From Oscillospiraceae bacterium (lineage in GTDB: Bacteria > Bacillota > Clostridia > Oscillospirales > CAG-272): a DNA stretch of 33,452 bases. The notes under the pieces were generated by a model. That model worked only from the letters and a program-made list of their open reading frames with translations, made no database searches and was not told where the DNA came from. The translations under genes were made by a program, and so were the position numbers. Positions 10,499 to 21,833 of this stretch are shown one piece after another. The stretch spans positions 1 to 33,452 of the forward strand of contig SVQS01000003.1 of the NCBI GenBank assembly GCA_015065205.1, given 5' to 3'. How positions within the stretch are numbered: the first letter of the stretch is position 1; every line of letters begins with the position of its first letter.

Positions 10499-10527
10499 GC
10501 CCGAGGACAAAATCCTCGGGCTTTTTT
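10499..10527 (+). terminator. Rho-independent terminator, duplicate of the one at 9652
   Basis: GCCCGAGGACAAAATCCTCGGGC followed by TTTTTTATT. Confidence 0.88.
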
Positions 10528-10549
10528 ATTGTTTGCAGTGACTAACGAT

Positions 10550-10685
10550 AGGCTCCCTTGTGTAAAGGGATGCTGTAAAATGTCGCAAGCGACAAGGGAC
10601 TGAGGGATTGTCTTAAAAGAATTTTGTTTTTAAAAATCCCTCCGCCTCGTATACACTCGGCACCTCCCTTTACACAAGGGAGGCT
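10550..10685. repeat. MITE-like intergenic element with ~20-bp imperfect terminal inverted repeats
   Basis: Left GGCTCCCTTGTGTAAAGGGA, right TCCCTTTACACAAGGGAGGC; internal pairing GAGGGATT...AATCCCTC. Confidence 0.75.
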
Positions 10686-10842
10686 TTCTCATTCGCGCCT
10701 TTTTGTCAACTCCTACAAAACAAATTATCACATTTTTCAAAAAAATGTTTGATATAGGGCTTTTCATACGTCGTTTTTTGTGGTATAATATGTATTTGGT
10801 ATGTTTTGAAAAAAATTTGGACGAATATGGAGAATTGGAAAA

Positions 10843-12687
10843 GTGATCAGAGAAGATTTGAGAAACGTGGCAATTATCGCGCACGTTGACCACGGTAAAA
10901 CGACATTGGTAGACGGGCTCCTCAAGCAGGGCGGCATCTACCGCGAAAATCAAGAGACCGTTGTTCGCGTTATGGACTCCGGCGACCTTGAAAAAGAGCG
11001 CGGCATTACCATTTTGGCAAAGAACACCGCCGTTCACTATAAGGATATTAAGATCAACATCATCGATACCCCCGGCCACGCCGACTTTGGTGGCGAGGTT
11101 GAGAGAATTTTGAAGATGGTAAACGGTGTTATCCTTTTGGTTGACGCTGCCGAGGGACCTATGCCCCAAACACGCTTCGTTTTGCAAAAGGCGTTGGAGT
11201 TGAACCACCGCGTTATCGTTTGCATCAACAAAATAGACAAGCCCGATGCCCGTCTTGGCGAGGTTGAGGACGAAATTCTCGAACTCTTGATGGACCTTGG
11301 CGCAAACGACGAACAGCTCGACAGCCCGATGATGTACTGCTCGGGTCGTGCAGGTACTGCTACCGAGGATCCCCTCGAAGAGGGCGTTGACCTGACTCCT
11401 CTGTTTGAAAAGATCGTCAACTATATGCCTGCTCCCGAGGGAGATGAGACGGGTGATCTTCAGCTGCTCGTTTCCTCCATCGACTACAACGATTACGTTG
11501 GACGTATCGGTATCGGACGCATCGAGCGCGGAAACATTCGTGTAGGTCAAGAGGTTGCCATCTGCAACTATCACACCCCCGGCGCCATTAAAAAGACCAA
11601 GGTTGTCTCTCTTTACCAAATTGACGGTCTTGTTCGTCAGCCTGTTGAAAGAGCTACCGTTGGCGACATCGTCTGCTTCTCCGGTGCGGGCGACATCACC
11701 ATTGGCGACACATTGACCACCGTTGCCCATCCCGAGCCTTTGGAGTTCGTTAAGGTCTCCGAACCCACAATGGAGATGACCTTTATGGTCAACAACAGCC
11801 CCTTGGCGGGCAAGGAGGGTAAGTTTGTTACTTCCCGTCAGCTGCGCGACAGACTCTACCGCGAGCTGCTCAAGGATGTTTCCTTGCGCGTATCCGACGG
11901 TGACACCACCGACGAGTTCCGCGTTGCGGGCAGAGGTGAAATGCACCTTTCTATCCTTCTTGAAACCATGCGCCGCGAGGGCTTTGAGCTTGCTTGCTCC
12001 AATCCCCGTGTGCTTTACAAGGAAATCGACGGCAAAAAGTGCGAGCCTATGGAGCGCGTAACGCTTGACGTTCCTATGGATTACGTTGGCGTTGTTGTTG
12101 AAAAGCTCTCCCAACGCAAGGGCGACCTGCTCTCGATGAACCCTGTCGGAAGCCGCACACGTATCGAATATTCTATTCCGTCTCGTTGTCTGTTTGGCTA
12201 CCGTTCCGAGTTCCTCACCGCTACCCACGGCGAAGGTGTTATCAACACCATCTTCGATGGTTACGCACCTTATCGCGGAGAGATCACCATGAAGTTCACA
12301 GGCTCTCTCATCGCGTCCGAGGCAGGTGAGACCACCCGTTACGGTCTCTACAACACCCAGGAGCGCGGGCAGCTCTTTGTTGGTCCGCAAACGCAGGTTT
12401 ATGAGGGAATGATCGTTGGTGAAAACCCGAAAAACGATGACATTGCCGTCAATCCTTGCAAAAAGAAGCAACTCACCGCCATCCGTTCTGCGGGTGCGGA
12501 CGAAAAGCTTCTCTTGACTCCTGCCAAGATTTTCACCTTGGAAGAAGCAATCGAATATATCACCGATGACGACCTCATCGAGGTCACACCCAAGTCCATC
12601 CGTCTGCGCAAAAAGATCCTCAATACCGAACTCCGTATGAAGGAAATGATGCGCCGCCGCCGTGAATTGGAAGCACAAAAGAAGTAA
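10843..12687 (+). CDS. typA: Translational GTPase TypA/BipA
   Basis: NVAIIAHVDHGKTTLVDGLLKQ, ERGITILAKN, DTPGHADFGGEVERIL, NKIDKPDAR; GTG start. Confidence 0.97.
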   Translation: MIREDLRNVAIIAHVDHGKTTLVDGLLKQGGIYRENQETVVRVMDSGDLEKERGITILAKNTAVHYKDIKINIIDTPGHADFGGEVERILKMVNGVILLVDAAEGPMPQTRFVLQKALELNHRVIVCINKIDKPDARLGEVEDEILELLMDLGANDEQLDSPMMYCSGRAGTATEDPLEEGVDLTPLFEKIVNYMPAPEGDETGDLQLLVSSIDYNDYVGRIGIGRIERGNIRVGQEVAICNYHTPGAIKKTKVVSLYQIDGLVRQPVERATVGDIVCFSGAGDITIGDTLTTVAHPEPLEFVKVSEPTMEMTFMVNNSPLAGKEGKFVTSRQLRDRLYRELLKDVSLRVSDGDTTDEFRVAGRGEMHLSILLETMRREGFELACSNPRVLYKEIDGKKCEPMERVTLDVPMDYVGVVVEKLSQRKGDLLSMNPVGSRTRIEYSIPSRCLFGYRSEFLTATHGEGVINTIFDGYAPYRGEITMKFTGSLIASEAGETTRYGLYNTQERGQLFVGPQTQVYEGMIVGENPKNDDIAVNPCKKKQLTAIRSAGADEKLLLTPAKIFTLEEAIEYITDDDLIEVTPKSIRLRKKILNTELRMKEMMRRRRELEAQKK

Positions 12688-12696
12688 TTGTCAAGG

Positions 12697-12801
12697 TCTA
12701 ATTTCATTGCTAACAAGTCTAATTTAATCGCTAACAAGATTGGGTTAAAAAATGCGATGTTTAATTTAATCGCTAACAAGTACAATTTAATCGCTAACAA
12801 G
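12697..12801 (+). repeat. Left repeat block: four ~21-nt copies on a 21-nt register
   Basis: TCTAATTTCATTGCTAACAAG (12697-12717), TCTAATTTAATCGCTAACAAG (12718-12738), unrelated 21-nt gap, TTTAATTTAATCGCTAACAAG (12760-12780), TACAATTTAATCGCTAACAAG (12781-12801). Confidence 0.9.
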
Positions 12802-12816
12802 AAAATACCAAAGCAG

Positions 12817-12858
12817 AAGGACGGGACTCCAAAATTGGAGTTCCGTCCTTTTGCTTTT
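12817..12858 (+). terminator. Terminator downstream of typA
   Basis: AAGGACGGGACTCCAA-AA-TTGGAGTTCCGTCCTT followed by TTGCTTTT. Confidence 0.75.
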
Positions 12859-13001
12859 AAAACCGTATCGACCGCAGGCTCAATTTCTTTGAAATCGTGT
12901 GATTTATCGGTTATCTGTAAAGTGTTTTGAATGTTACGGATTATTTTATCCTTCGTAATTTCTTTTTCGTGTTGCTCTGTTCTGTCATATATTAAAAAAT
13001 A

Positions 13002-13030
13002 TTGAAAAACGATTGAATATATGATATAAT
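13002..13030 (+). promoter_or_regulatory. Sigma-A type promoter of the DUF4132 cassette
   Basis: TTGAAA (13002-13007), 17-nt spacer, TATAAT (13025-13030). Confidence 0.65.
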
Positions 13031-13062
13031 AGACCATATAAAGCTTGTATTGGAGAATTTTT

Positions 13063-13497
13063 ATGCCTAACAAAAGCATTCAAATATACGTTGCCCTAAA
13101 GCACATGGGAAACGTAGCAAGAAAAGTAAAAGAATATCCGTTCTTACTCGGTAAGACACCGCGCACGTTTCGTGAGTTGATCGAAGAATCGGTAAGATCT
13201 TGCGTTGATGCATACAAGACACGCGCAAACAATGCGAACAACCCCGCACCGCTTACCGATGAGCAGCTTGACGGGATGCGCGAGATCGGCAAATTTGCGT
13301 TTGGTGTGCATTACAATGAAAACAAAATAGACGAAGAAAAAGCTATTCAAACTGCGATAGATGCGGTGACGGACGGACTTGTGCGCGTGTTCAAGGGGAC
13401 GAATGAAATTACCGATCTTGATGCCGAAATCGAAATATCCGAAGGCGATGTCTTTACGTTCGTAAGACTTACAATGCTCTCGGGCAGAATGTGGTAA
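13063..13497 (+). CDS. Uncharacterised ~144-aa protein, partner of the downstream DUF4132 protein
   Basis: Start at MPNKSIQIYV (13063) preceded by GGAG; stop 13 nt before the next ATG; C-terminus ITDLDAEIEISEGDVFTFVRLTMLSGRMW. Confidence 0.85.
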   Translation: MPNKSIQIYVALKHMGNVARKVKEYPFLLGKTPRTFRELIEESVRSCVDAYKTRANNANNPAPLTDEQLDGMREIGKFAFGVHYNENKIDEEKAIQTAIDAVTDGLVRVFKGTNEITDLDAEIEISEGDVFTFVRLTMLSGRMW

Positions 13498-13510
13498 AGG
13501 AGGGACCCCA

Positions 13511-16500
13511 ATGGCGGATAATGTTTCGGAAAAATACGAAGCAATGATGAAAAAGAAAAAGCTCGCGGAAGCTTATGCGGAAAAATTTCGCAAGCGCGAG
13601 GAATTGCTGAAAGAAAAGCTAAGCAAGGGGCAGTATGATTTTTTCAAAAATCAAGGACAATTCCTTGACCAGACCATCTATTCGAATCTCGTAACGGCAA
13701 TGAGAAATCCGAGTACCGTTCCTTCGGAATACGTATCCAAAAAATTGGGATGGCTCTTTGATTTTGCAATTCCAAGCCGTGAAAAGGACGTTATTTTGTA
13801 TTTTGCGGACAGACTGCAAGAATATCCTTATTCGGATTCTTACAGCAGAAGATCGTTCAGGGCAAAAGGGAACGGCGCATACGCATCGAAGCTTGCGTAT
13901 ATGATCCGTCAATATGGCAATGCCAATATGAATGTAGTCGACGAGCCCCTCGACAAAATTATCACCGGAGAAGTATCCGAACAGGCCAAGGCTTATCTTG
14001 ACGGCTATGCTTGGCGCGGATGCGGATATACGGGATGGCAGGTAGCATACGCACTTGATCATCATAACAGTAAAGTAGAAGAAGCCGTTCGTCGAATCCT
14101 GACCGAGGAAAACGGTTCGGGAATGATGACAAACGAGCTTATTCGCGGTGTGGTTTTCAGCCACAGAAGTGATTTTCATGAGCTTCTGGGCAAGCTGCTT
14201 CTTGCGGCAAGACTGCAAGAAGGTCTCCGCCAAGTCATCTGCGAAAATGCCGATTACGGCACAAAAGCCTGTTTTCTCACCATATTAAAGGTAATTGCCG
14301 AGGACAATTTGATCCGTTTTTCATCGGTTAAGCGCGCTGTGGGAACTTGGCTTGGTATCTTGACGGAAGAAGCGCGCGATCTTGACCGCGTCAGCGAAAA
14401 GAGCGTTCGTCTGATCATTGATTGTCTTGAAGACGAAAACGCACGAAAGAAACACCTTGCATCCGAGGATGCGATGAAGATCTATATTGCTCTTTGGAGC
14501 TACGGTCTCGATGATATTGACGATGCCATTCAAAAAATCGTTCAGATTGCAAACAACGGCTCAATACATCAGTTACTTGTAGCAGGCTATTTTGTGGCAA
14601 ATCTCGATCTGCCGTATCTATCCAATCAGATCGCAAAGATCGTGCTGAAGAAGCACTACGATAAGGACGAGGTTCTTGCAGTATGGCTTCCTTGCTTTAT
14701 GCCCACACGAGTGTCTGCCTTGTGGAATGCCATAAGAAACGAGCAGCCTATCGAATACAACACTTGGTTTGATAGTAAGGCTGAAATACACGAGCATTAT
14801 CAGCTTATCAAAGAGCTGTATTCTGCTTTCTCCGGCAAAACCAAAACATTCTCCCCCTGTGTTTTTCCGTGGTATGAAGCCAAAATTGCCAAGAGTGATT
14901 TTGCCGAACTTCTTTGCACCTTGACGGCTTTGTTGGGGGATAATGAAAAAATTGATGAAGCCTGCGGCTTGATCAAAGAATGTGATTCCAATCAAAGGCA
15001 AACTTATTTTTACGCCCTGCTGCACAATCCCAAAACACCGCTCCAGCGTAAAACCGTGTTGGAAGGTCTTGTTGATAGAGAAACATACACTCGCAAATCA
15101 GCTTACACGATTGTGTCCCAAATGAAATTGTCGGCTGATGAATATCACTCTATCGAGGAATATTTGCGTTTTAAGGGTGCAGATATTCGTAAAAACGTAA
15201 TAGAGCTTTTGCTCCGGCAAAATGATTCCGAACTCACCGCGTGCATCGGTCGACTGCTTGAAAACAGCAAGGAAGAAGTGCGCCTTGGCGGACTTGATAT
15301 GCTGTTGCAGCTCAAAAAGGATGCAAAACGCCACAAAATCACAGAGTCCTTTGCAAGTATTCTTTCCCAAAGAGCAAAAGCCGATGATCTTCCCTCAAAG
15401 GAAAAGATCTTGCTTGATTCTCTTGTTCCCGCAAAAGCGGAAACGAAAACGGAGGCAGTCAAGCTGTTCTGTGCAGAGGACAAATACCTGCCTGTCGAAT
15501 TTGATGCAGAGTATACAGAGCTGTGTGCAAAGACCTTTGCAGAATATTTCCCGGACTCGAAATTGCCCGAGCTGATTCGCGGCAAAAAGAGGGGGATGAA
15601 CTTTTTTGACAAGATCAAATCGGCATTGACTGATCCTGTTGCCTGCAAATCCGCAACTGTTGCGGCGATGGATATTCTGTCGCTTTCCAAGCTGATTGAT
15701 GAGCATAAACGCGATCCGTTTGTAAATTCGTGGGGCGAAACTGTACTTTTTGGAAACGTACCGCCGCATTCTCCCCACCTTGAGGACAAAGACGGTAAAT
15801 TCGTGTTTGCAGAGCTCTGGGATGAATGGAAAAAGACCAATGGAATAACCAATGCGCGCCTTGTTCGTGCGCTCGTTTTGTTCAAAGCATACAGAAAGAA
15901 AACACACTTTTCCGTGACTTGCGCAGAGACGATAAGAACCGTATTTGGAGCAGGCTTTGAACGTGGCGAAAATCTTCCTTATCCCGCTATTATCGCCATG
16001 ATTCTCAGTCACCTGCTTGACTGTGTGCCGAAGGAAGAGCTCTCACAACTTGCATCCGCAATTGCGATATGGTTTATCGGGTGCGTACCTGATAATATGG
16101 TTATGATTCACGCTCCAACACAGGAAAAATTGCCAATGCAACTGGAAATGGCACACCTGCTTGCACACGCTCAGTTGTATCAAATTTACAAATGGTTGAA
16201 ATGTGAAAACAATGCTGATTTGAAAAACACTTTCCCATTAGCTGTTGCATCTGCGGAACGTTGTGTGGCAGCTTTCAAGAAGATTCCCAAAGAAGAAACG
16301 AAGATCGGCAATTCCTATTACTACATTGGCGATTCACGTATTCGTGTTTTGCACGAGCCGCATGAGAGTATGTACGGTTCTCGCAATCCTCTTGTCGGTG
16401 TAAACGCATATTTGTTTGCGGCATATCAAGGTATTATTACCAAGGCTCAGTTGTTTGAATTCTTGCTTGATGCTGATAACCTACGCGAATCGATGGAGAC

Positions 16501-18760
16501 CGTGACTGCTATTGCATCGACTTACTACGAAAAGGGGAAGCAGATCTCCGCCCACGATTCTTACAAGGGGATTCGCAATGCCCGTAAGGTGAAAGAGTTC
16601 CTTGGCAAAGAGGATGAACCGAGTGCAGAGGATATAAAGATCATCGAGTACGTTTCTCATATTTATGAAGCTGTTATTCCCGTCGTTCTTGCTTCCGAGC
16701 TTAGCCGTGGCGATAGCCCCGCGACCTATACCAAGGGAATTCACGGCATCGCGCGCATTTACGGAGCAAAATATCTCTCGGAGATATTGTCCGCTATGGG
16801 TAACGATACCCTTGACAGAACCGCATATTACGGTTGGGGCGAAGCAAGTAACCGCAAAGGCTCGCTTTCCTACCTTCTTTCCGTTTGTATCCCGTCCGAC
16901 GAGGATTCTGTAGATACGCTTCGTGCGGCTCTTTCGGGGAAGAAGATCACCACCAAGCGCTTGATCGAAGCGGCATTGTTCTCTCCCGAGTGGATACCGA
17001 TCATTGGCAAATATCTTGAGATCGATTCCTTTGAATCGGTTTGCTACTACTTTATGGCGCACATGAACGAAAGGTTCGACGACAAGCGCAAGGCGATGAT
17101 CGCAAGATTTACGCCCCTTTCGGAGGACGAATTGAATCTCGGTGCGTTTGACGTGAATTGGTTCCATTCTGCATACGATTCCATCGGAGAAAAGGAGTTT
17201 GACCTGATCTACGATGCCGCCAAGTACATTTCCGATGGTGCAAAGCATTCCCGCGCGAGAAAGTATGCGGATGCGACACTTGGCAAATTTGGTGTGGACG
17301 AGACCGAAAAGACCGTTTCCGACAAACGAAACAAAGACCTTTTGATGGCGTATGCACTCATACCGCTTTCGGGCGAAGACGATATTTGCCGCCGCTATCT
17401 TTATATCCAAAGATTCCGCAAGGAAAGCCGTCAGTTCGGTTCACAACGTGTAGCAAGCGAAGGGAAAGCTGTTGAAATGGCGCTTACCAACCTCGCGATC
17501 AACGCGGGATATTCCGATACGATGCGTCTCACCTTGCGTATGGAGACCAAGGTCATCGACGACAGCCGAGCACTTCTTGAAGAACAGATAATCGAGGGGG
17601 TATCCTTAAAGATAACACTTGATGAAAACGGCAAGGCAAGTCTTGTTTGTGCAAAGGACGGCAAGACGCTCAAGAGCGTTCCCGCAAAGCTGAAAAAGAA
17701 TGAAACCGTTGTGGCTCTTACCGATATGGTCAAAACGCTCACCGAGCAGTACAGACGCACACGGGTGATGCTTGAGAGAGCAATGGAAGACAGCACCATC
17801 TTTACCTTTGGTGAGCTTTCAGCACTGTCGGCGCATCCCGTGGTTTATCCGATGCTCAAAAATCTCGTGCTGATCAGCGGCGATGCCGTTGGCTTCCTTG
17901 CCGACAACGGACTTGTGAATGATAATGGAACGATACAGCCTCTTGACGATAGTGCGAAAATCAAGATCGCCCATCCGTTTGATCTTTACAGCAAGAGCTG
18001 TTGGAGAGATTATCAAAAGTATCTCTTTCAAAACAAGATCGCACAGCCCTTCCGCCAAGTATTCCGCGAGTTGTATGTCAAGACGGCAGAAGAAATGGAT
18101 ATGTTCCATTCTCTCAGATATGCCGGCAATCAGATACAGCCCGCCAAAACAGTCGGTGCGCTTAAGAGCCGCCGTTGGGTAGCGGATATTGAGGACGGTC
18201 TGCAAAAGGTTTATTACAAAGAGAACATTGTGGCGCAGATCTATGCGCTTGCCGATTGGTTCTCGCCTGCGGATATTGAAGCTCCCACGCTTGAATGGGT
18301 GTGCTTTACCAACCGAAAGACAGGTGAAGAGATCAAGATCGCGGATATTCCCGACATCGTATTCTCCGAGGTCATGCGCGACGTTGATCTCGCAGTCAGC
18401 GTAGCGCACGCAGGCGGTGTCGATCCCGAAACAAGCCACTCCACAATCGAGATGCGTGCGGCTATTCTTTCCTTTGTTCTGCCTATGTTCCGCATAGCAA
18501 ACGTCAAGGTAGAAGGTCATCACGCCATCGTGGACGGCAAGCTTGCAGAGTATTCGATCCACCTCGGAAGCGGTGTCGTGCATCAGATTGGTGCTGCAAT
18601 GATCCCCGTCCTGCCCGTCCATTCACAGCATAGAGGAAAGATATTCCTGCCTTTTGTGGATGACGATCCCAAGACAGCCGAGATCATATCCAAGGTTCTT
18701 TTGTTTGCAGAGGATGATAAGATCAAGGATCCTATGATATTGTCAAATATCAGTAAGTGA
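13511..18760 (+). CDS. Giant DUF4132 / MolR(YehI)-family protein, 1749 aa, with HEAT-like central region
   Basis: C-terminus QPFRQVFRELYVKTAEE...YAGNQIQPAKTVGALKSRRW and AHAGGVDPETSHSTIEMRAAIL...YSIHLGSGVVHQIG...VHSQHRGKIFLPFVDDDPKTAEIISKVLLFAEDDKIKDPMIL is typical of DUF4132 proteins; AAGGAGG RBS. Confidence 0.85.
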   Translation: MADNVSEKYEAMMKKKKLAEAYAEKFRKREELLKEKLSKGQYDFFKNQGQFLDQTIYSNLVTAMRNPSTVPSEYVSKKLGWLFDFAIPSREKDVILYFADRLQEYPYSDSYSRRSFRAKGNGAYASKLAYMIRQYGNANMNVVDEPLDKIITGEVSEQAKAYLDGYAWRGCGYTGWQVAYALDHHNSKVEEAVRRILTEENGSGMMTNELIRGVVFSHRSDFHELLGKLLLAARLQEGLRQVICENADYGTKACFLTILKVIAEDNLIRFSSVKRAVGTWLGILTEEARDLDRVSEKSVRLIIDCLEDENARKKHLASEDAMKIYIALWSYGLDDIDDAIQKIVQIANNGSIHQLLVAGYFVANLDLPYLSNQIAKIVLKKHYDKDEVLAVWLPCFMPTRVSALWNAIRNEQPIEYNTWFDSKAEIHEHYQLIKELYSAFSGKTKTFSPCVFPWYEAKIAKSDFAELLCTLTALLGDNEKIDEACGLIKECDSNQRQTYFYALLHNPKTPLQRKTVLEGLVDRETYTRKSAYTIVSQMKLSADEYHSIEEYLRFKGADIRKNVIELLLRQNDSELTACIGRLLENSKEEVRLGGLDMLLQLKKDAKRHKITESFASILSQRAKADDLPSKEKILLDSLVPAKAETKTEAVKLFCAEDKYLPVEFDAEYTELCAKTFAEYFPDSKLPELIRGKKRGMNFFDKIKSALTDPVACKSATVAAMDILSLSKLIDEHKRDPFVNSWGETVLFGNVPPHSPHLEDKDGKFVFAELWDEWKKTNGITNARLVRALVLFKAYRKKTHFSVTCAETIRTVFGAGFERGENLPYPAIIAMILSHLLDCVPKEELSQLASAIAIWFIGCVPDNMVMIHAPTQEKLPMQLEMAHLLAHAQLYQIYKWLKCENNADLKNTFPLAVASAERCVAAFKKIPKEETKIGNSYYYIGDSRIRVLHEPHESMYGSRNPLVGVNAYLFAAYQGIITKAQLFEFLLDADNLRESMETVTAIASTYYEKGKQISAHDSYKGIRNARKVKEFLGKEDEPSAEDIKIIEYVSHIYEAVIPVVLASELSRGDSPATYTKGIHGIARIYGAKYLSEILSAMGNDTLDRTAYYGWGEASNRKGSLSYLLSVCIPSDEDSVDTLRAALSGKKITTKRLIEAALFSPEWIPIIGKYLEIDSFESVCYYFMAHMNERFDDKRKAMIARFTPLSEDELNLGAFDVNWFHSAYDSIGEKEFDLIYDAAKYISDGAKHSRARKYADATLGKFGVDETEKTVSDKRNKDLLMAYALIPLSGEDDICRRYLYIQRFRKESRQFGSQRVASEGKAVEMALTNLAINAGYSDTMRLTLRMETKVIDDSRALLEEQIIEGVSLKITLDENGKASLVCAKDGKTLKSVPAKLKKNETVVALTDMVKTLTEQYRRTRVMLERAMEDSTIFTFGELSALSAHPVVYPMLKNLVLISGDAVGFLADNGLVNDNGTIQPLDDSAKIKIAHPFDLYSKSCWRDYQKYLFQNKIAQPFRQVFRELYVKTAEEMDMFHSLRYAGNQIQPAKTVGALKSRRWVADIEDGLQKVYYKENIVAQIYALADWFSPADIEAPTLEWVCFTNRKTGEEIKIADIPDIVFSEVMRDVDLAVSVAHAGGVDPETSHSTIEMRAAILSFVLPMFRIANVKVEGHHAIVDGKLAEYSIHLGSGVVHQIGAAMIPVLPVHSQHRGKIFLPFVDDDPKTAEIISKVLLFAEDDKIKDPMILSNISK

Positions 18761-18856
18761 TTGAGGCATATTGAGCTTGAACGACTTACATAGGTTAGTT
18801 GATATCAGTAGAATGTCAATTTTTACGAAAGTTAAAATTGTTTGATAAGTCAACAG

Positions 18857-18892
18857 ACCCCCGAGGCAAATTTTGCGCTTCGGGGGTTCTTT
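18857..18892 (+). terminator. Terminator of the DUF4132 cassette
   Basis: ACCCCCGAGGCAAATTTTGCGCTTCGGGGGT followed by TCTTT. Confidence 0.75.
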
Positions 18893-19007
18893 GTAAAAAG
18901 GAAAAGTTTTCAAGATAAAAAGTCTTGTTTCAAAAATAGATGTAAGTTAACATTGAAGGGGCAAGTTTCTAACAAAGACAAAAACATCCGTTTTTATGCT
19001 TTATAAA

Positions 19008-19137
19008 CTTGTTAGCGATTAAATTAAACCTAAAAATAACGCATTTTCAGAAAAACAAATCTTGTTAGCGAATAAATTAGACCTGAAATGCTTAAAATTG
19101 CTCAAAAACACCGCAATCTGTTAGCGATGAAATTAGA
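19008..19137 (-). repeat. Right repeat block: three ~21-nt copies in inverted orientation relative to the left block
   Basis: CTTGTTAGCGATTAAATTAAA (19008-19028), CTTGTTAGCGAATAAATTAGA (19061-19081), TCTGTTAGCGATGAAATTAGA (19117-19137). Confidence 0.88.
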
Positions 19138-19161
19138 CTGTGACAGTAATTGAAAGAGAAT

Positions 19162-19235
19162 GCAGGGGGGGAACTTTTTTCCAAAAAGTTCCCCCCCTGC
19201 ACCTCCTTCAAAAACTTTTGCACAAAAGGGAAGGA
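19162..19235 (-). repeat. Intergenic repeat family A, copy 3 (inverted)
   Basis: Palindrome GCAGGGGGGGAACTTTTT-TCC-AAAAAGTTCCCCCCCTGC (19162-19200), then CACCTCCTTCAAAAACTTTTGCAC, the reverse complement of the copy 1/2 lead-in. Confidence 0.7.
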
Positions 19236-19286
19236 GAAGCCGTCGGTTCACAAACAGACGGAACGTCAGACAAATTCGGATAGGAA

Positions 19287-19324
19287 AACCGCCCCAAGAA
19301 GCCGCGTGGCTTCTTGGGGCGGTT
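19287..19324 (-). terminator. Terminator of the alpha/beta-hydrolase gene
   Basis: 17-bp stem AACCGCCCCAAGAAGCC-GCGT-GGCTTCTTGGGGCGGTT; T-rich on the minus strand. Confidence 0.8.
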
Positions 19325-19332
19325 GGGCTTTA

Positions 19333-21114
19333 TCAGCCGGTCAATGTGTTCGTTACGGTTAGTATACAAGCCGTAATCGCCATAATGATACCGCCGATGT
19401 AGGGGTTTTTCGTTTTCTTGTAAATGGTGTGGCTGATGAGAACCGACAAGGGAAGAATCACTACGATGGGGAAGAGCCAAATGCCCATAATGCCGGTAAT
19501 GGGGTCCAGCACCATCTTGCCCGTAATAAAGAACTTGGTGTATTGGATCGCGATCATCGTTGCAGGGCCGATGAAGACCCAGAACATTTGTGACAGAACA
19601 GAGGAGCGTTTGGTGTAGGTATAGCAGTTTGTGCATACGCTGGTTGCAATGTAGTAAACAAGCCAAAAGGGCAGGAAGCAAAGAACCTTAACCAGATGTT
19701 TTGCTTCAAACGCTCTGATGGTCGCAAAGCACCAGAGTCTGTAGTCGGTCAAGAAGAAGTAATCTGACAGGAATACCAAGAGGAATGCCGAAGTGACCAC
19801 CGCAAGTGCGAGAACGATGGTACGGAACATCATTCCCTTGCCAAGCTTCGCGCCTCTCTCATAGCGGTCGATGAAGGTGTGTTTTCTGATCTTGCGAATG
19901 GTGCCTATGGTAAACAGACCGCAAAGCAGCGACCACGCACCGATTGCAAAGGAGCCGCCTTGGTTCCAGATAGCAATTAGCATAGAGCCGACAAAGCCGA
20001 TAATAAAGCCAATAAAGTAGAAGGGAATGCTCCATACTGCACCCCAGAAGCTTCTACGGCGAGCCTTCTTTTTAGCAACATCCTCAAGCGCCGGCCAAGG
20101 GGTAACGGGAGCCTCTGCCTTCAGGACGGCAAAGTAGGGCAGGTTCAAGAGGGCAAAGGTAGCGGCGACCACAAACATAAAGAAGCCAACAATGCCCAAA
20201 GCATTGAATGCCGCCTTGAATTGCCAAATCTGATTGGTATGCTCCAAGGAGATGGGAGCACCTAACGCACGGTAAAAGAAATCGGTGCTAAAGCTGACAA
20301 CGTCACCCGAAAAATGCGCCCATGGGTGCGTAATTGCGGGATTGTAGATTGCGCGAATGGCGGTTTCACCATCTATTTTTTGCGCGTAGAACTCACCTGC
20401 GGTGCGCTTTTCAAGCCCCGTGGGGTCAACACCGAAGTGCAGGAAGGATTGCGCGGTAACTTGATCGATGTATTCACGGGGCGGGTTACCGTCCACACGG
20501 TGGAAGAATTCGTCGTATTGACAAGCAACGATGGCGGCATCTCTTGTGCCGAATTGGTTGTAGAAGTTGCCGTCCTCATCATAATACACTGCATCGTTGG
20601 AAACGAGCAGAGCGGCGGCAATGAGACCTTCACTGTCTTGTAATACGGCCTCGCGGCAGGCAAGAGCACCGTTGGAGTGTCCGGTTACGCCGATTTTGGT
20701 CGTATCAACAAAGGGGAGAGAGGCAACGTACTTTACGCCGTCGTAAAGTCCGTTGGCGTTGTTTTCGTCATCCCACCAGGTGTTTGATTCGATTGCTTCC
20801 GAGTCGCCGTGGCCGTACATACTAATGGCGAGCACAACGTATCCGCGGCGGGCATACTCAACGTAGTTGAGGTCCTGCATCTCGCGGTTGTTGTACCAAC
20901 CGTGGCTGACTACGATGGCGGGGGCTTTGTTTTCCGGAGTGGCTGTTTCGGGAACGAGCAAGAGGGCGTCGAGCTCGTGGCCGCTGTTTGTTACAAATGT
21001 CATATCGTGATATTCCACCCGCCCAAAGTCGGATTGGAAGATGCACGCTCCAAGAGAACTGATCAGGCATACGATCAAAGAAATGATAACGAGGGACTTT
21101 GCTTTCAATTTCAT
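19333..21114 (-). CDS. Secreted/membrane alpha/beta hydrolase fused to a polytopic C-terminal membrane domain
   Basis: VVSHGWYNNREMQDLNYVEYARRGYVVLAISMYGHGDS, GVTGHSNGALACREA nucleophile elbow, then several TM helices. Start trimmed to MKLKAKSL (21114), preceded by AAAGGAGCTCCCCCT. Confidence 0.8.
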   Translation of the reverse strand: MKLKAKSLVIISLIVCLISSLGACIFQSDFGRVEYHDMTFVTNSGHELDALLLVPETATPENKAPAIVVSHGWYNNREMQDLNYVEYARRGYVVLAISMYGHGDSEAIESNTWWDDENNANGLYDGVKYVASLPFVDTTKIGVTGHSNGALACREAVLQDSEGLIAAALLVSNDAVYYDEDGNFYNQFGTRDAAIVACQYDEFFHRVDGNPPREYIDQVTAQSFLHFGVDPTGLEKRTAGEFYAQKIDGETAIRAIYNPAITHPWAHFSGDVVSFSTDFFYRALGAPISLEHTNQIWQFKAAFNALGIVGFFMFVVAATFALLNLPYFAVLKAEAPVTPWPALEDVAKKKARRRSFWGAVWSIPFYFIGFIIGFVGSMLIAIWNQGGSFAIGAWSLLCGLFTIGTIRKIRKHTFIDRYERGAKLGKGMMFRTIVLALAVVTSAFLLVFLSDYFFLTDYRLWCFATIRAFEAKHLVKVLCFLPFWLVYYIATSVCTNCYTYTKRSSVLSQMFWVFIGPATMIAIQYTKFFITGKMVLDPITGIMGIWLFPIVVILPLSVLISHTIYKKTKNPYIGGIIMAITACILTVTNTLTG

Positions 21115-21227
21115 AGGGGGAGCTCCTTTCGGTTTTTTAATTTGGGGTCGCAGTTCTATTATATCATGAAATATATGGGATTGCAACAGAAAATGGGCAA
21201 TACGCTGTGCAAGTTTGTATTTTTATC

Positions 21228-21256
21228 TTGCAATCTATCAAGATTTCTGTTATAAT
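21228..21256 (+). promoter_or_regulatory. Sigma-A type promoter
   Basis: TTGCAA (21228-21233), 17-nt spacer, TATAAT (21251-21256). Confidence 0.65.
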
Positions 21257-21287
21257 GAGAAAAACCGACCGAAAGGAGCGTTTTGAT

Positions 21288-21833
21288 ATGACGGTATTTG
21301 AAAGAGAATTGAAAATCATTCGCAAAGAAATCATCAAACATATTGTTTTGGCGTGTGTTTCTGCTATTCCGGGATTGATACTTGCAGTGTTCGCTTTTGG
21401 AAAAGCATCTCCGTTACCTATGCTCATTATATCGCTCGTTTTCTTCGTGCCTGCTGCCGTATTATTGAGCGGTGCTATGAAACGTAAGAGCATACATAAA
21501 CAATATGCAAGCATTCAAAATACGCAAAAGTTTTACGATGTAAACTTGAAAAATCCAAAGGTGAAATTTCTTCTTGTCTCGCAAGGAAGACAGTCGTTTT
21601 CAAGGTCTTTGTTGGGTGTTGTGCTGATTGGCGAGAACCAAAATCGCTATTATTACATTTTGCCCGAGACTGTTTTGTTAAATTGGGAAAGCCTTGTTTT
21701 GGCACAGAACAAAATAAAAGAAAGATTCAACCGCGAAATTTGCATTCAATGCTACGAGAACACCAACGTGATTCGCTCTGTTGAAAAGGATGTTCATTTC
21801 TTGCGTTTTCATCGTGGTAAGCTGTGTGACTAA
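21288..21833 (+). CDS. Uncharacterised membrane protein with two predicted TM helices
   Basis: MTVFERELKIIRKEI...; hydrophobic segments IVLACVSAIPGLILAVFAFG and MLIISLVFFVPAAVLLSGA; GAAAGGAG RBS. Confidence 0.7.
   Translation: MTVFERELKIIRKEIIKHIVLACVSAIPGLILAVFAFGKASPLPMLIISLVFFVPAAVLLSGAMKRKSIHKQYASIQNTQKFYDVNLKNPKVKFLLVSQGRQSFSRSLLGVVLIGENQNRYYYILPETVLLNWESLVLAQNKIKERFNREICIQCYENTNVIRSVEKDVHFLRFHRGKLCD

Follow-up and report, generated by a model that had tools for sequence, protein, structure and literature searches.

Tn7-like transposons, including Tn7, Tn6022 and those of the CRISPR-associated transposon (CAST) I-B class, have multi-repeat ends with TGT/ACA tips, generate a 5-bp target-site duplication and target the 3' end of a conserved gene. 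Here, we analyze a 33,452-nt stretch of DNA (the window; contig SVQS01000003.1) from a metagenome-assembled genome (MAG) of an Oscillospiraceae bacterium (CAG-272), in which a gene for a small protein and a gene for a very large DUF4132-containing protein are the cargo of a mobile element. This element shares the features listed above with the Tn7-like transposons but differs from them in that it has no transposition genes except for a relic of tnsC and in that its attachment site is typA. Our data make it probable that the two genes represent a conserved stress module stranded as cargo on a transposase-less Tn7-like element, which begins 1 nt past the stop codon of typA.

A related gene pair, DRA0165-DRA0166 of Deinococcus radiodurans, which encodes the small protein SEP068184 and a DUF4132 protein, has been studied experimentally. 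DRA0166 is subject to DdrO-dependent repression and is induced by mitomycin C via IrrE (PMC8533742), while DRA0165 is induced by radiation and H2O2 (PMC9650054). A strain with a deletion of DRA0165 is viable, has higher survival in the presence of H2O2 and is unaffected in DRA0166 expression, and DRA0165 binds thioredoxin 1 (PMC9650054). The structural neighbours of DRA0165 according to I-TASSER are MoaD, SAMP1 and related molybdopterin (MPT)-synthase proteins (PMC9650054). The large protein also has the DUF4132 domain in common with E. coli YehI (MolR); by contrast, YehI contains neither DUF7737 nor DUF5724, and in its locus (yehK-yehL(MoxR AAA)-yehM-yehP(vWA)-yehQ) no homologue of the small gene was detected.

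Results

The mobile element spans positions 12689-19145 of the window (6457 bp), has the tips TGTCA...TGACA and is directly adjoined by GTAAT at either end. The left copy of this target-site duplication (12684..12688) overlaps the stop codon TAA of typA and the right copy is at 19146..19150. The left end (12689..12801, plus strand) consists of the TGTCA tip and four 22-bp repeats starting at 12696, 12717, 12759 and 12780 (consensus GTCTAATTTMATYGCTAACAAG), and the right end (19008..19145, minus strand) of three inverted 22-bp repeats starting at 19008, 19061 and 19117 and the TGACA tip. In total, seven matches to the repeat are present, i.e. four forward at 12696-12801 and three inverted at 19008-19138, compared to 0.01 expected. 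In the congener G850, in which TypA is 98% identical, the 3' flank of typA is uninterrupted and contains a single GTAAT, and the joined flanks from the window are 91.6% identical to this empty site across 178 bp. The ends, the target-site duplication and the empty site show that a self-contained two-component module has been inserted, with typA on one side and a hydrolase gene on the other, as proposed in a preliminary description made from the sequence alone; this description had missed the surrounding transposon ends, the target-site duplication and the tnsC relic. Repeats of this type are absent outside the element in the available 1.84 Mb of its own genome (75% complete). An exact-pattern scan with the terminal repeat gave five matches in 85,462 genomes, all chance matches without further repeats, and none in viral contigs, and blastn with the left end against plasmids gave only chance matches.

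In four genomes of the genus, i.e. in the window, G860, G856 and G866, an element end is located precisely 1 nt past the stop codon of typA. The element in G860 has the repeat family of the window and the same layout, and starts at the identical base after typA; those in G856 and G866 have a different repeat family (TTACAACTCTNNNTGAAA) and the identical start base. No such element end is present in another ten congeners for which the sequence 3' of typA could be read. We are confident that the typA 3' end is a recurrent attachment site. The main texts of PMC10293859 and PMC8649781 make no mention of typA as a Tn7 site, and a literature search on Tn7 with typA or BipA gave no paper that is apparently about such a site.

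The element at typA in G866 (contig C27; L083 11570-20000, L086) is an autonomous Tn7-like transposon. Here, typA is followed by left-end repeats, tnsC, tnsB, tnsA, an open reading frame (ORF), tniQ and a gene of TnsD size. The genes from tnsC to that of TnsD size all read towards typA, and other cargo continues to the end of the contig. TnsC has a TniB/AAA domain, TnsB an rve and a Mu-transpos_C domain, and TnsA a Tn7_TnsA-like_N domain, while TniQ has 298 aa (TniQ E 7e-15) and the second TniQ-like protein 603 aa. The presence of both a small TniQ and a larger protein of TnsD size matches the dual TniQ-TnsD loci described in PMC10293859. Unlike in the Tn7-like elements mentioned above, tnsC and not tnsA is nearest to the target-proximal end. 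The ORF between tnsA and tniQ is uncharacterised and encodes 358 aa, the cargo includes two large ORFs that are related to each other and begin almost identically at the N-terminus, and the right end of the element lies beyond the contig.

In the window element, the only match to a tns gene is the tnsC relic (12846..12953, minus strand), which is located between the left repeats and the cargo promoter and has the same strand as tnsC in G866. Its 36 codons are 39% identical to residues 456-491 of G866 TnsC (tblastn E 2.9e-4, next best match 0.42), and the alignment score of 77 compares to a maximum of 49 among 5000 shuffles. The same region also matches DUF6063 weakly (E 0.0021, below the gathering score); based on position, strand and the shuffle test, we prefer its assignment to tnsC. 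A protein search of the available 1.84 Mb of the genome identified no TnsB homologue, and the rve gene of this genome encodes an unrelated transposase of the IS30 type. Thus, among the features expected of a Tn7-like transposon, the window element has multi-repeat inverted ends, TGT...ACA termini, a 5-bp duplication and site-specific insertion, while TnsA, TnsB and TnsC together with TniQ/TnsD are encoded by the G866 element and not by the window element. Because only the tnsC relic is left, we classify the window element as a degenerate derivative and not as an intact member of this group.

The Tn5090/Tn552 and IS21 groups likewise have TGTCA/TGACA tips, several repeats at their termini and 5-bp duplications. 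These similarities, and the fact that the repeat sequence in the window is unlike that of the autonomous G866 element, would fit with a cassette that is not autonomous and derives from a different rve-family transposon, of the Tn5090/Tn552 or IS21 type. We regard such an origin as very unlikely: a tnsC relic is present beside the left end and on the expected strand, the insertion base is identical and the repeat spacing similar to those of an element that encodes TnsA, TnsB, TnsC and TniQ, and the 3' end of a conserved gene is used site-specifically. A Tn7-like origin of the window element is highly likely.

For a Tn7-like element at this site, a selector of the TnsD/TniQ type would recognise the conserved typA 3' end, and TnsA/TnsB would bind the 22-bp repeats and insert the element; a later internal deletion would remove tnsC-tnsB-tnsA-tniQ, leaving the cargo and the ends. 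Such a deletion is the simplest reading of the present structure. With the tns genes lost, the element would either be immobile or depend on functions supplied in trans for its movement. Three observations weigh against this scenario. The repeat families of the window element and the autonomous element differ, and the exact parent transposase was not found; the MAG is 75% complete, and a helper in trans is possible; finally, G866 TnsD was not found beside typA when searched for in 377 genomes of the family, with a single weak match at an unrelated locus. Targeting of typA by TnsD is therefore suggested by the positional recurrence only.

The small gene (13063..13497, plus strand) encodes a protein of 144 aa and the large gene (13511..18760, plus strand) a protein of 1749 aa with DUF5724 (aa 55-1344), DUF4132 (aa 1384-1556) and DUF7737 (aa 1646-1747). 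The preliminary description had made its interpretation dependent on conservation of the small gene beside DUF4132 genes in other genomes. The outcome did not refute it: in 22 of 23 loci, the window included, from four named phyla and the phylum of the window, the small gene immediately precedes a gene for a DUF4132-DUF7737 protein. In the plasmid collection, matches to the small protein are encoded directly 5' of DUF5724/DUF4132 genes in Bacteroides, Chondrinema, Fulvitalea and Deinococcus, and the pair is likewise adjacent in two other members of the class. A profile of the small protein family identified additional small genes in front of genes for DUF4132-DUF7737 proteins of ~700-870 aa without DUF5724 (Chondrinema, Fulvitalea, Novosphingobium and Nonomuraea). 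Moreover, an unbiased profile scan of 399 genomes of the phylum gave nine non-self matches. Eight of them immediately precede a DUF4132/DUF7737 gene, and the remaining one is an incomplete frame at an unrelated locus. One DUF4132/DUF7737 gene in Nonomuraea (L092) has no small gene beside it. YehI, as mentioned above, lacks DUF7737, and no small gene was detected in its locus. Thus, the small protein pairs mainly with DUF4132-DUF7737 proteins. We conclude with near certainty that the two genes form a conserved functional pair. Its distribution is patchy (7/292 genomes of the class).

In G737 (L037 3520-8277) and G797 (L039 3847-8333), which belong to another family, the DUF5724-DUF4132 gene is broken up into a number of frames, which suggests decay or assembly errors; in G737, the small gene is intact despite the split large gene. 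On a Fulvitalea plasmid (L029 8349-17551), two pairs are adjacent on opposite strands, one with a long, DUF5724-containing large protein and one with a short large protein. In Bacteroidota and Deinococcus, pairs are found on plasmid records or secondary replicons (L027-L030, L074-L076), all of which are non-mobilizable according to PLSDB.

The matches of the large protein to DUF5724 (E 4.7e-292), DUF4132 (E 1.1e-43) and DUF7737 (E 2.1e-35) in Pfam are all far above the cut-offs; for instance, the match to DUF4132 (PF13569) has 149.7 bits compared to a gathering score of 27. The label DUF4132/MolR, under which the protein was first described, is correct with respect to DUF4132, but the bulk of the protein consists of DUF5724 and a C-terminal DUF7737, which are lacking in YehI. 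Pfam also detects no WGR domain, in agreement with the preliminary description. By contrast, the HEAT-like helical repeats described there are not significant in Pfam (HEAT_2, E 0.18); PADLOC reports a weak HEAT/HEAT-ARM match (E 0.0083), and a profile search against the PDB gave generic HEAT-type matches and nothing else. The large protein was found in no phage record. Its invariant residues cluster in the last 550 aa (e.g. RDxDL, VDPExS, HLGS and FLPFxDxDP), and DUF4132-DUF7737 is the most conserved part and rich in invariant polar residues; R1623, D1624, H1633, E1640, H1684 and H1704 are conserved polar positions of this C-terminal module. No cysteine is among the invariant residues, which argues against an E1/E2-like role. 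The historic name MolR of DUF4132 relatives would suggest a function in the regulation of molybdate metabolism. We consider this highly improbable because molybdate genes are unchanged upon depletion of DdrO (PMC8533742), the large protein has no WGR domain, and the translated ORFs around the cassette include no molybdate genes.

The small protein represents a new family; it has no match in Pfam, NCBIfam or PADLOC, and only chance matches in a profile search against the PDB. An L-x-G motif near the C-terminus is invariant (L139 and G141 in an alignment of 13 sequences). Nine of the 23 small proteins end exactly in GG (LAGG, LVGG or LKGG) and the others in G followed by a few residues; members with a GG end are found in Deinococcota, Bacteroidota, Pseudomonadota and Actinomycetota. 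In a forced global alignment, the small protein is colinear with MoaD as far as the C-terminal GG. The conserved L-x-G tail together with the independent threading of DRA0165 suggests a ubiquitin-like (MoaD/beta-grasp) fold, which we favor with some reservation. Similar to MoaD, ThiS, SAMP and Urm1, part of the family has a GG-COOH terminus, and DRA0165 resembles these proteins by threading (PMC9650054); unlike them, the small proteins have ~130-150 aa instead of 65-100, many carry one to three residues past the conserved G, the profile match is not significant, and the operon includes no gene for an E1, JAB or MoaE protein.

Several results count against this assignment and the function that it implies. 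The 14 members without a terminal GG include that of the window (GRMW); hhalign gave probabilities of 1-9% for the small family against MoaD/ThiS, with decoys reaching up to 6%, and is not significant; Pfam has no ThiS or ubiquitin match for the family; single-sequence AlphaFold models are too poor for a fold search (pLDDT 45 and 36); and no activity is known for any of the large partner proteins. The lack of a significant profile or Pfam match and the members that do not end in GG would be expected if the small protein were an ordinary chaperone or structural subunit with a glycine tail that is merely a docking peptide. This alternative has perhaps one chance in three, as it does not account for the I-TASSER neighbours of DRA0165, which are all of the MoaD/SAMP type (PMC9650054), the GG ends in members from four phyla and the colinear MoaD alignment.

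The pair in D. radiodurans connects the ubiquitin-like candidate and its partner to stress. In locus L030 (11870-12354), the radiation/desiccation response motif (RDRM) TATGCTATTTACATA precedes the small gene by 80 bp. Because this is the published RDRM, the locus is DRA0165-DRA0166. Four Deinococcus species including D. radiodurans have the DdrO-box motif ahead of the small gene, at -73 to -195. These results contradict, as does PMC8533742, the claim in PMC9650054 that no RDRM is present upstream of DRA0165, and the homologues in other phyla contradict the claim in the same study that the small protein is not conserved outside Deinococcus. The window pair and DRA0165-DRA0166 have the same gene order and homologous proteins (28% identity each). 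They differ in the intergenic gap (13 nt in the window and 2 nt in D. radiodurans), and DRA0165-DRA0166 is DdrO-controlled and located on chromosome 2, while the window pair is transposon cargo with a vegetative-type promoter. The preliminary description had mentioned stress or defence as possibilities only. The stress part gains support from the Deinococcus orthologue (PMC8533742, PMC9650054), and we regard a role of the pair in stress as reasonably likely.

The defence part has less in its favor. According to PMC8649781, the cargo of Tn7-like elements is rich in defence systems. Together with the patchy distribution and the weak HEAT-ARM match in PADLOC, this would be consistent with the pair being typical Tn7 cargo for anti-phage defence or a toxin-antitoxin system in which the small protein inhibits a toxic large protein. 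However, a viable DRA0165 deletion strain with unchanged DRA0166 expression and better H2O2 survival (PMC9650054) is unlike what is expected for an indispensable antitoxin, and the Deinococcus and Bacteroides loci are outside recognisable defence islands. Therefore, we find a defence or toxin-antitoxin function unlikely.

The remaining signals of the cassette agree with the layout initially described (promoter, ~144-aa gene, 13-nt gap with ribosome-binding site, 5.25-kb gene and terminator), all parts of which are present. The promoter-like site at 13002..13030 (plus strand; TTGAAA-17-TATAAT, 11/12, with TG ahead of the second hexamer) is the top-scoring site of the region, in which the total number of such sites is at chance level (10 observed and 11.1 expected by chance). 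For the small gene, the alignment of homologues favors the start codon ATG at 13063 over the upstream TTG at 13045, and the gap between the two genes contains AGGAGG. The operon ends with an intrinsic terminator at 18856..18892 (plus strand; -23.8 kcal/mol, z = -4.5), which a simple pattern scan did not list. Rfam has no match within 10500-21500.

Next to the left end, a near-perfect hairpin flanked by runs of A and T (12811..12856; z -9.7 on the plus and -7.1 on the minus strand) is a probable bidirectional terminator. Hairpins are present at the corresponding place in G860, G856 and G866 and, thus, inside the repeats of each of the four ends; the hairpin in the window would shield typA and the element from one another. 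Separately, long GC-rich hairpins (GCAGGGGGGGAACTTTTTTCC...) recur 3' of typA across the genus (window 19160-19202, L042, L045, L049 and L055). They resemble dispersed repeat hairpins and adjoin the insertion site.

Discussion

The type of transposon, DUF4132 proteins and cargo islands in a degenerate state have all been described before. What is new is the typA attachment site, a defined gene pair with a distribution across phyla and a partner that is possibly ubiquitin-like. With respect to how the two proteins may work together, we tentatively suggest a model in which the C-terminal tail of the small protein (L-x-G-G or G-x-x) would dock on DUF4132-DUF7737 of the large protein. The docked small protein would regulate, or serve as a cofactor for, an enzymatic activity of the large protein, while the DUF5724 region would form a HEAT-like helical scaffold, in the context of a stress response. 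We consider this mechanism to have slightly less than an even chance, and we found no report in the literature showing docking of the small protein on DUF4132-DUF7737. As a more speculative possibility, and a rather improbable one, the small protein could be a true ubiquitin-like modifier or carrier with a C-terminal glycine that is processed or charged, and the DUF4132-DUF7737 giants its dedicated enzymes. The two proteins would then represent a stress or defence system without E1, E2 and JAB proteins that has spread between phyla and is moved by Tn7-like elements that use typA.

The typA 3' end provides a simple handle for finding the cargo of Tn7-like elements, and a search anchored at typA catches transposase-less elements that searches based on tns genes would miss. 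In the case of the element described here, three scattered clues, i.e. the DUF4132 family, a damage-induced operon in Deinococcus and a peptide supposed to be specific to Deinococcus, are joined into one multi-phylum module. Thus, the function of DUF4132 proteins, which has long been open, becomes testable in the tractable D. radiodurans and with a defined partner.

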